In this document: piece after piece, positions 46,119 through 60,900 of the stretch
How positions within the stretch are numbered: the first letter of the stretch is position 1
How the letters are laid out: every line of letters begins with the position of its first letter
Source: Amnibacterium flavum
Lineage (GTDB): Bacteria > Actinomycetota > Actinomycetes > Actinomycetales > Microbacteriaceae
Length of the DNA: 64,000 nucleotides
Reading direction: 5' to 3'
Assembly: GCF_003097495.1 (NCBI RefSeq)
Contig: NZ_QEOP01000002.1
Span: 124,001 to 188,000 of the forward strand
Translations under genes and position numbers: made by a program
Notes under the pieces: generated by a model
Told to the model about the DNA's origin: nothing
Database searches by the model: none
Seen by the model: the letters and a program-made list of their open reading frames with translations, nothing else

Positions 46119-46192
46119 CGCGGGGTGGAGCAGTTCGGTAGCTCGCTGGGCTCATAACCCAGAGGTCGCAGGTTCAAATCCTGTCCCCGCAA
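46119..46192 (+). tRNA. initiator tRNA-Met (CAT)
   Basis: 74-nt cloverleaf: acceptor CGCGGGG pairing with CCCCGC, D-arm GGAGCAGTTCGGTAGCTC, anticodon stem CTGGG-CTCATAA-CCCAG with anticodon CAT, T-arm with GGTTCAAATCC. The unpaired C1-A72 and the three G-C pairs GGG/CCC at the base of the anticodon loop identify it as the initiator. CCA is not encoded (ACT follows). TAAAGT at about 46102-46107 is a candidate -10. Confidence 0.96.
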
Positions 46193-58879: not shown

Positions 58880-58898
58880 ACCTGGGGAGGTAATGCAA

Positions 58899-59645
58899 AT
58901 GGGGAAGACCAAGATGCGCAGAGCAGCCGTCGGGCTCATCGCAGCGACGGCGGTGATCGTGTCGACGATGGTCGCCGTTCAGCCGGCGAGTGCGTACGGG
59001 CTGTTCTCGTACGAGAAGAATGCGGGTTTCGAGGGCTTCGGGTTCGACCCGAAGAACATCGACGTCTGCTACGACAGCACGCTCGCGCAGGGCGCCGATC
59101 CCGGCTTCTGGCCCGAGGTCCTGCGTCGCAGCGTGTCGGTCTGGAACGACGCCACCGACAGGATCCGCTTCCGGTCGCTGAAGCCCACCGAGGGCCACGC
59201 CTACAGCAGCGTCTGCGACGTGCAGATCTGGGGTTCCGTGTCCTATTACGACAGCAACGGCGACGGCACGATCACCGGAGGCGAGAGCTCGGTGCTCGCG
59301 ACGGGCGGCCGGACGGGCTACATCAACCAGCCGGGCAACCGGTACAGCACCGGCCGCGGATACGTCCTCATCAACGACTCGATCTATCGCCGCAGCATGA
59401 GCGAGGCGACCCTGTTCCGGTCGCAGTCGGTGATCGCCCACGAGATCGGTCATGTGCTCGGACTCGCTCACCCGGCAGCCGACCCCGACTCGGCGCAGTC
59501 GCTGATGTCGAACTCGACCTGGCCGGGCAAGCCGATGCAGGACGACATCGACGGCATCGAGGCGATCTACTCGAAGATCACGAAGCCCATCAAGCCGGAG
59601 GCGCCGTACCCCGGCAACGAGCCGGGACTCATCCGGTTCGACTGA
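58899..59645 (+). CDS. secreted matrixin-like metalloprotease with EF-hand-type loop
   Basis: 248 residues. A Sec signal peptide (about 1-35, ending PASA-YG) precedes one catalytic domain. The metzincin zinc motif HEIGHVLGLAH has His181, Glu182, His185 and His191, and SLMSNS supplies the Met-turn. Between strand regions lies DSNGDGTITGGE at 118-129, a canonical 12-residue Ca2+-binding loop. Two cysteines (VCYD and VCDV) could form a disulfide. ATG at 58899 has GGGGAGG 8 bases upstream; the ATG at 58893 is too close. No prodomain cysteine switch is seen. Confidence 0.85.
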   Translation: MGKTKMRRAAVGLIAATAVIVSTMVAVQPASAYGLFSYEKNAGFEGFGFDPKNIDVCYDSTLAQGADPGFWPEVLRRSVSVWNDATDRIRFRSLKPTEGHAYSSVCDVQIWGSVSYYDSNGDGTITGGESSVLATGGRTGYINQPGNRYSTGRGYVLINDSIYRRSMSEATLFRSQSVIAHEIGHVLGLAHPAADPDSAQSLMSNSTWPGKPMQDDIDGIEAIYSKITKPIKPEAPYPGNEPGLIRFD

Positions 59646-59687
59646 CGACGGCGCCTCGGGGGCCGACTGTTCGATGCGCGGTGACCG

Positions 59688-59880
59688 CGTTAACGAGATG
59701 GGGGGAAGAACGCCCCCGCGTTCTTCCCCCAGGTCCGAGATCAGATACTCGGAAGGTTCTTAGCTCCTACCCCTAGAAGCTGTCCCGGTCGCTACCCGAA
59801 GCGGCCGGTAAGAAGAGAATGGCGCGGATGGGAATGTCATGCAATCGGGGTGCCCGTCGTGTGTTCGCTGGGCGAACATC
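59688..59880 (+). repeat. structured intergenic element, copy 1 (candidate RNA)
   Basis: About 190 bases nearly identical to copy 2 over the first 60 and structurally matched after that. Five stems on the plus strand: 59701-59730 (13 bp, CCCC loop), 59734-59753 (TCCGAG/CTCGGA), 59762-59781 (8 bp, one mismatch, CCCC loop), 59785-59808 (9 bp, loop ACCCGA) and 59862-59878 (TGTTCGC/GCGAACA). It lies between the 3' ends of the matrixin gene and the unknown minus-strand gene, filling most of the 255-base gap. Class not recognised. Confidence 0.75.
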
Positions 59881-59900
59881 GGCAGCGATCACCGCTGCGC

Positions 59901-60512
59901 TCACGGAACGAAGAACGACGTCCGCGTACTCCAGTCGCGGTCGACGTAGGCGGTCCAGATGTCCTCTTTGAGCGCGTTGATCCTGAGCCGACGCTCCCTG
60001 GCGTAGGTGGGGTCGTCGGCCGGGTCGAAGGACGGTTTGAGTCGGGAACCGAGCATCTCGTCGAGGGCGGCCTCGCGGGCTGCGGCGATGATCGCGTCGG
60101 TGAAGGTCCGGTCGTCGGCGAGCTCGGCCATCCTCATCGTGAGGACACGCGTGATCTGCTCGCGCATCGCGAGCGCATGCACGTCCATGCGCCGGTAGTC
60201 GGCCGGGTCGCCCGGGCGGCCCCTGCGGGACTGCGCCCGTGCCCGAGTGTTCTCGAGCCGGTCGGCATCGGATGTCTTCTCCGCGATGAGGTCGTCGATC
60301 TCGCCGCGCAGCGCACCCGTCATCCAGGTGTCGTCGTACAGCTCGCCGTCGCGGAGCGCGCGGACGATGAGCCGGTTCTTCATCGACAGTCGCAGAGATG
60401 CGGCGACGATGAGCACGCCCTCCTCGACCTGGCGTTCGACGGACGGCTCCTCCGCGGGAGTGATGATCGCGAGGTCGGCGGCGGAATCGCTCCGTCGTCC
60501 CCGCACACGCAT
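59901..60512 (-). CDS. hypothetical protein flanked by the structured elements
   Basis: 203 residues, soluble, mostly helical and rich in Arg, Asp, Glu and Ala. No known domain is recognised. Segments such as VEEGVLIVAASLRLSMKNRLIVRALRDGELYDDTWMTGALRGEIDDLIAEK and MDVHALAMREQITRVLTMRMAEL look like amphipathic helices. It ends DRDWSTRTSFFVP. ATG at 60512 has GGAGAGG about 7 bases upstream and TACGCT near 60560 as a possible -10. Copies 1 and 2 of the structured element lie in direct orientation on its two sides. Confidence 0.65.
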   Translation of the reverse strand: MRVRGRRSDSAADLAIITPAEEPSVERQVEEGVLIVAASLRLSMKNRLIVRALRDGELYDDTWMTGALRGEIDDLIAEKTSDADRLENTRARAQSRRGRPGDPADYRRMDVHALAMREQITRVLTMRMAELADDRTFTDAIIAAAREAALDEMLGSRLKPSFDPADDPTYARERRLRINALKEDIWTAYVDRDWSTRTSFFVP

Positions 60513-60626
60513 CCCGTGCCCTCTCCACGCCGGGGCCCGACCTTCCTGGCCCCACCCCGAGCGTACTTCGCCGAGGCGGACGACTCACCAGCCGGCTGTC
60601 TCCCGCATCGTGCGGATACGACTAGC

Positions 60627-60818
60627 CGTTAACGAGATGGGGGGAAGAACGCCCCCGCGTTCTTCCCCCAGTCCGAGATCAGAACTCGGAAGGTTCGCGC
60701 TCCTACCCAGGGAGCGGACGTCCCGGTCACAACCCGAAGTGGCCGGTAACAAGAGAATGGCGGGTAACGCCGGCACCTGCAATCCGGGCGATCCGGCGAT
60801 GTTCGCTCCGCGAACATC
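60627..60818 (+). repeat. structured intergenic element, copy 2 (candidate RNA)
   Basis: Plus-strand stems: 13 bp stem GGGGGAAGAACGC with its complement (about 60640-60669, CCCC loop), TCCGAG/CTCGGA (60672-60690), CGCTCC/GGAGCG (60698-60716, loop TACCCAG), CCGGTCAC/GTGGCCGG (60723-60746, loop AACCCGAA) and CGATGTTCGC/GCGAACATCG (60797-60819). It sits in the 388-base divergent gap 60513-60900. The remaining bases hold the promoters of both flanking genes; nothing else is seen. Confidence 0.75.
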
Positions 60819-60900
60819 GACCCCGGAAGGACATATCCGCGTCACGACGACGTCGTCTGCGGGTCACGCACGAGCCGCCGCGTTCTGCGATATTCCGACG

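Follow-up and report, generated by a model that had tools for sequence, protein, structure and literature searches.

The window analysed here, a 64,000-nt stretch of Amnibacterium flavum DNA, carries two copies of a strongly structured repeat, and the question raised by this locus is what the copies encode and from which strand they would be read. The preliminary description of the sequence reported two direct repeats with a near-identical start, and this observation is borne out: positions 59688-59732 and 60627-60671 are identical at 45 of 45 nt, further blocks in the same register are 89-100% identical with small indels, and a BLAST comparison over positions 1-193 gives an overall identity of 81% (E 3.7e-42). 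Because the 22-nt core of hairpin 1, at up to three mismatches, is absent from all 100 shuffled versions of the window, chance is excluded as the origin of the copies. Their context is also as described, with copy 1 lying between the convergent ORFs 58893-59645 (plus strand) and 59901-60512 (minus strand) and copy 2 lying between divergent ORFs. (The plus-strand ORF 58893-59645, convergent with copy 1, is a gene for a Matrixin-like protease [PF00413, E 3e-8].)

Two further copies are known. The third is located elsewhere in the source genome (G000:C1:186314-186526), and the fourth, TasA_G005, occupies the equivalent place in G005, a sister species of the same genus. A model built from all four copies, R1, was used to search 398 genomes of the family with strict filters under which weak matches are lost; it scores the four copies at 174-201 bits and otherwise yields weak matches only. 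As a whole sequence, the element is narrow in these 398 genomes. Several candidates were rejected: reverse-strand R1 matches of hairpin 1 in G104 (28 bits) and G034 (23 bits) were judged on reading to be chance hairpins, the sequence at a BLAST match in G336 reads as coding DNA, and two Acidobacteria contigs from one scan of a contig collection were taken as chance.

The likely transcript is probably that of the minus strand, opposite to the earlier proposal, because the conserved far end of each copy (59816-59878 and 60754-60816) reads on that strand as a palindromic upstream site followed by a promoter. In minus-strand order, each window copy consists of the 17-bp palindrome TGTTCGCNNNGCGAACA, 17 nt, a -35-like TTGNNN, a 17-nt spacer, a -10-like CATTCT, and then about 122 nt containing four hairpins. 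The starts predicted from the -10 positions, A59809 and A60747, would place the palindrome centre 61 nt upstream. The arrangement was compared at 13 palindrome sites, namely those of the four elements, two kinase leaders, and seven others. TTGNNN-N16-18-YANNYT stands at offset 17 on five of the 13 sense sides (both window copies, the third copy, and both kinase promoters) and on none of the opposite sides, while YANNNT at offset 39-41 is present on 10 of 13 sense sides versus 0 of 13 opposite sides, against a background of 0.02-0.03; these counts describe the pattern rather than test it, since it was derived from some of the sites later counted, and the controls are the opposite sides together with a locus in another genus (G118, below). 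In the whole window the full pattern occurs four times, both strands together. The -35 is absent from TasA_G005. A consensus promoter scan of 59600-60900 called no promoter on either strand, and an intrinsic terminator scan of the minus strand over the same interval called none, finding no GC-rich hairpin with a U-tract; a tail, UUUUCGUUUUCC, is present in TasA_G005, and a U-tract is present in the G118 locus (L072). The RNAs of all four copies are free of ATG, and there is one GTG in copy 2.

In copy 1, the palindrome is an exact match at 59862-59878; this motif, enriched in G000 and G005, is proposed to be a response-regulator site. It is followed on the minus strand by TTGCAT at 59839-59844, 17 nt past the palindrome, and by CATTCT at 59816-59821, with a spacer of 17 nt. 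The predicted RNA (59688-59809, 122 nt, fold z -3.53) has no gene behind it. Its fold contains hairpin A (59785-59808, loop UCGGGU, with one C-A mismatch), hairpin B (59762-59781, loop GGGG), a third hairpin whose loop, UAUCUGAU, is not G-rich (59734-59753), and a last hairpin of 13 bp with a GGGG loop (59701-59730), which is also evident from comparison of the repeats. Past this last hairpin, a copy 1 transcript would be antisense to the Matrixin-like gene. Copy 2 has its palindrome, again exact, at 60800-60816, and the offset pattern then places TTGCAG at 60777-60782 and, after a 17-nt spacer, CATTCT at 60754-60759. Its predicted RNA (60627-60747, 121 nt, fold z -3.13) has hairpin A at 60723-60746 (loop UUCGGGUU, from the fold), hairpin B at 60698-60716 (loop CUGGGUA) and a third at 60672-60690 (loop UUCUGAU, not G-rich), both from the hairpin listing, and the 13-bp last hairpin at 60640-60669 (loop GGGG, from the repeat comparison and the hairpin listing). 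This RNA would be the leader of minus-strand ORF 59901-60512, which encodes 203 aa and whose ATG lies 114 nt beyond the RNA end; the product has no Pfam or NCBIfam match, and relatives that are 37-48% identical occur in seven other genomes of the genus. Thus, the earlier remark that a simple 5' leader role cannot hold for both copies is right for copy 1, which leads no gene, but overlooks that copy 2 precedes a co-directional ORF, just as copies 3 and 4 precede a surface-type operon.

If the minus strand is the one transcribed, the exposed loops are therefore G-rich rather than C-rich: three of the four hairpins (A, B, and the last) have such loops, and the third does not. The C-rich loops that were suggested as able to pair with ribosome binding sites do exist on the plus strand, as CCCC and UACCC/ACCC, but that strand is probably the wrong one, and the corresponding minus-strand loops are GGGG and CGGGU. 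It is on the minus strand, and not the one first proposed, that the element should be studied.

The distribution of the palindrome links the element to a two-component system. Allowing one mismatch, the palindrome occurs 10 times in G000, five times in G005, three times in G003, once in G007, and not at all in the five other genomes of the genus; a reversed-pattern control at the same tolerance is found in none of the nine. Exact palindromes are present in 18 of the 398 family genomes (versus one of 398 for the control), and more than one is present only in G000 (four) and G005 (three). The palindrome is also found without the element, ahead of other genes. In both G000 and G005 it lies between a regulator gene and a kinase gene, and at copies 3 and 4 it lies within the kinase gene, at its 3' end, and reads towards the surface-type operon. 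This operon encodes a signal peptidase (TIGR02228 above cut-off, SipW below) and exported proteins; its TasA label reflects signal-sequence resemblance only. Other palindrome sites precede genes whose products look, by sequence, exported or surface-bound, one of them with fibronectin type III domains. The regulator gene near the third copy matches Response_reg above cut-off and the LuxR-type GerE below it. The kinase has no significant match in Pfam or NCBIfam; we take its LHGP.QGRL motif to mark a putative kinase, a call that rests on the place of the gene together with this motif. Kinase homologues at E<=1e-30 are present in three of the 398 genomes, weaker ones such as that of G118 falling beyond this limit. 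The palindrome and the LuxR-type regulator gene co-occur, and the palindrome may be bound by the product of this gene. An assignment of the palindrome as an SOS box was dropped, as the half-sites of that box are the other way round.

Several palindromes lie in other settings. Two one-mismatch palindromes (L047 2267 and L048 2483) on contig C6 of the source genome were omitted from the counts; this 67.7-kb contig has a ParA-like gene, recognised by sight, and is perhaps a plasmid. In G003, which has neither the element nor a close kinase homologue, two palindromes, one exact and one mismatched, lie 55 bp apart and adjoin a kinase-like gene (L051 1681-1752). Five genomes of genus g36 (L073-L077) have one exact palindrome each, with the same or a complementary centre and without the promoter or G-loops.

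When 16 other exact-palindrome loci (L071-L085 and L012) are compared, a single one, that of G118 (L072), has the promoter, and it is also the sole one with a kinase homologue. In this genome of another genus, the exact palindrome is followed by the promoter at the same offset and by a hairpin with the loop UUCGGGU and then AAUCUUUUUCC. The next gene is the kinase homologue (26% identical, E 7e-17), and the same cluster holds a regulator homologue (44% identical). CGGGU loops or close variants recur in the kinase leaders of two genera. (Within L072 1501-1730, the kinase leader has a terminator with the loop UUCGGGU, and an upstream UACCCG could pair with this loop.) A homologous pair is also present in G008 (L055/L087; regulator 42%, kinase 28%), beside tuf and ribosomal genes. 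Even with one mismatch allowed, the palindrome is missing from this genome, hairpins with a GGGG or CGGGU loop are absent around the pair, and there is no surface operon; this is perhaps a simpler form of the system.

Taken together, these features lead us to favour, with somewhat better than even confidence, the reading that the copies are regulator-activated leaders or small RNAs of the minus strand. Each copy would be a regulated transcription unit, in which the LuxR-type response regulator encoded near the third copy binds the palindrome at -61 and switches on the promoter. Transcription would yield a non-coding RNA some 120 nt long, with three of its four hairpins exposing CGGGU, UGGGU, and GGGG. 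Where an operon or gene lies downstream, as it does at the third copy and copy 2, the RNA would serve as its structured leader, and the last 13-bp hairpin is a possible attenuator in these leaders; at copy 1, where no gene lies behind, it may act as a free RNA or a decoy. The G-loops could then base-pair with 6C RNA at its C-loops, an interaction through which 6C would control the mRNAs or, conversely, be titrated by the RNAs.

A 6C candidate is indeed present in the source genome (L050 531-606; G000:C1:998030-998105), where it scores 42 bits against a gathering score of 47. Matches to 6C at E<=0.001 are found in four of the nine genomes of the genus, at 40.6-42 bits; none reaches the gathering score of 47, and default annotation would miss this sub-threshold 6C. 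The two-loop 6C pattern is present in seven of the nine genomes, G000 and G005 included. The element itself is not a member of the 6C family, an assignment excluded by test: RF01066 matches neither the window at gathering score nor 59600-60900 at E<=10, and in place of a pair of C6 loops the element has loops of the CCCC/ACCC type on the plus strand and G-loops on the minus strand. The comparison with 6C in the preliminary description was thus a useful lead, with 6C standing as a would-be partner and not as a relative. The precedent for such pairing comes from B11, which we take to be a 6C homologue. M. abscessus B11 represses by way of its C-loops and a six-G tract in the 5' UTR of eccB4, and paired mutations in loop and UTR restore repression (PMC10470900), while M. 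marinum B11 requires a C-rich loop for target regulation (PMC12395582). The fit of CGGGU to the 6C loops is less than ideal. Given a regulated minus-strand RNA, pairing with 6C would be the likeliest use of the G-loops, although it should be regarded as tentative, and a protein or another RNA is possible as the loop partner. The fuller scheme, in which the two-component system steers 6C via G-loop decoys and so frees surface-protein mRNAs with G-tracts from a 6C block, would seem unlikely as a whole.

To about the same extent unlikely is a minus-strand RNA of the CsrB/RsmZ kind, whose repeated G-loops titrate an RNA-binding protein and not 6C. Such an RNA would account for the regulator type, the upstream palindrome, and the repeated loop motif, and it would be consistent with the poor fit of CGGGU to 6C and the presence of CGGGU or close variants in the kinase leaders of two genera; the loop core, however, is not GGA. 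The core shared by the loops is GGG(G/U), and among the listed loops of the four elements GGA occurs only within CGGGGA of TasA_G005. Because the GGA loop feature is lacking, membership in the CsrB/RsmZ group is not claimed, while the design may well work alike.

The leaders of the 13 palindrome sites contain 19 GGG-loop hairpins and one CCC-loop hairpin; the shuffle mean is 3.4, none of 500 shuffles reaches 19, and the opposite sides of the 13 sites contain two. Nine of the 19 are in the four elements, six in the two kinase leaders, and four in the seven other leaders. For these seven, four hairpins compare with 1.46 in shuffles, 26 of 500 of which reach four; this is a weak excess, and four of the seven leaders have no G-loop hairpin in the counted stretch. 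At least one G-loop hairpin is found in nine of 13 leaders versus eight of 53 upstream regions of the window (p 0.0003), and in five of nine leaders when the elements are excluded (p 0.015), the window background representing 64 kb of a 3.57-Mb genome with gene calls made in this analysis. G runs are similarly enriched: runs of at least 5 are present in 12 of 13 leaders, nine of 53 window upstream regions, and three of 13 opposite sides, and runs of at least 6 in six of 13, three of 53, and none of 13, respectively. The G000 kinase leader has two GGGG loops, and that of G005 has two GGGG, one UCGGG, and one UCGGGU; G-tracts or G-loops also occur in leaders at the other palindrome sites, those of the kinase gene and of surface-type genes. 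CGGGU-loop hairpins with a stem of at least 4 number 20 on both strands of the window, one of them within a copy. It could be argued from this last figure, and from the weak excess in the seven other leaders, that only the palindrome and promoter matter and that the hairpins are the partnerless leader structure of a GC-rich genome. Yet the 19 G-loop hairpins against one C-loop hairpin, unequalled in 500 shuffles, speak otherwise, as does the last hairpin, in which 28 nt are unchanged between two species that share 64% identity in their kinases; we consider this explanation quite unlikely.

Folding was considered for both strands. In both copies, either strand folds better than most or all shuffles, with z values for copies 1 and 2 of -4.46 and -5.11 on the plus strand and -3.53 and -3.13 on the minus strand. 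The compensatory changes noted earlier, CGC/GCG versus CAC/GTG and AGCTCCTA/TAGAAGCT versus CGCTCC/GGAGCG, are present in the sequence; an RNAalifold consensus of the four sequences added little. An Rfam search, which the preliminary description had proposed, was run: at gathering score the whole window yields only a tRNA (46119-46192) and leaves the element unmatched, and at E<=10 the interval 59600-60900 yields five matches, each below its gathering score and taken as chance. A structured RNA family is supported by the four copies, and the stems that change around constant loops, some of them with compensatory changes, are consistent with the small structured RNA first envisaged, apart from its strand. 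Wobble pairs point both ways as to the strand: hairpin A of both window copies has one U-G pair on the plus strand that becomes a C-A mismatch on the minus strand, favouring plus, whereas the two G-U pairs of a hairpin in TasA_G005 speak for minus. A plus-strand small RNA, with C-rich loops that pair with G-rich ribosome binding sites and with the palindrome as its 3' hairpin, would have the better fold z, the retained U-G wobble, and the loops CCCC and UACCC to recommend it. However, the palindrome also precedes other genes where the element is absent and so is not just a part of the RNA, the -10-like box keeps to a single side of the palindrome, and the copies share nothing upstream of a plus-strand start, all of which makes such an RNA improbable.

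A mobile or REP-like repeat, as the RNA-like mobile repeat of the preliminary description, would suit the several copies, two of them near each other, but is highly improbable: the third copy has the equivalent place in two species, every copy begins with the palindrome and promoter region, homology spans the palindrome to just past the last hairpin, and no match was found to the element in plasmid and phage collections or to the hairpin pattern in viral contigs.

If the RNAs of the favoured minus-strand reading are regulated 6C partners, a compact circuit of few parts would connect a conserved small RNA with a two-component system. Should 6C play no part, the joint occurrence of a regulator palindrome and a shared RNA loop motif at the kinase operons of two genera and at surface-type genes would still be new, with a single signal influencing both transcription and the RNA made. 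Those parts of the literature covered by our search contain no mention of the element RNA or the palindrome that we could find, which does not prove its absence.

Among known systems, GacA controls RsmY/RsmZ and UvrY controls CsrB. These RNAs resemble the element in having a LuxR-family regulator, a palindromic upstream site, a loop motif that recurs along the RNA, and a hairpin at its end; the element differs in its loop core, GGG(G/U) and not GGA, and in also standing as an mRNA leader. The operon behind the third copy is reminiscent of the SipW/TasA-type surface operons of Bacillus, given its signal peptidase (above cut-off for TIGR02228, below it for SipW), but it belongs to another lineage, adjoins its own two-component genes, and owes the TasA label to signal-sequence resemblance only. 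6C/B11 RNA (RF01066) is, like the element, a bacterial RNA with hairpin loops of one base, and its pairing would mirror that of the element, with C in the place of G; it differs in its C6 loops and its other place in the genome (L050), whereas the element has G-rich loops on the likely strand. The leaders also have a parallel in the B11 targets: eccB4 of M. abscessus has a 5' UTR G-tract able to pair with C-loops (PMC10470900). Unlike such a target, the element presents several G-loops, each in a hairpin, downstream of a shared palindrome, and one of its copies leads no gene.
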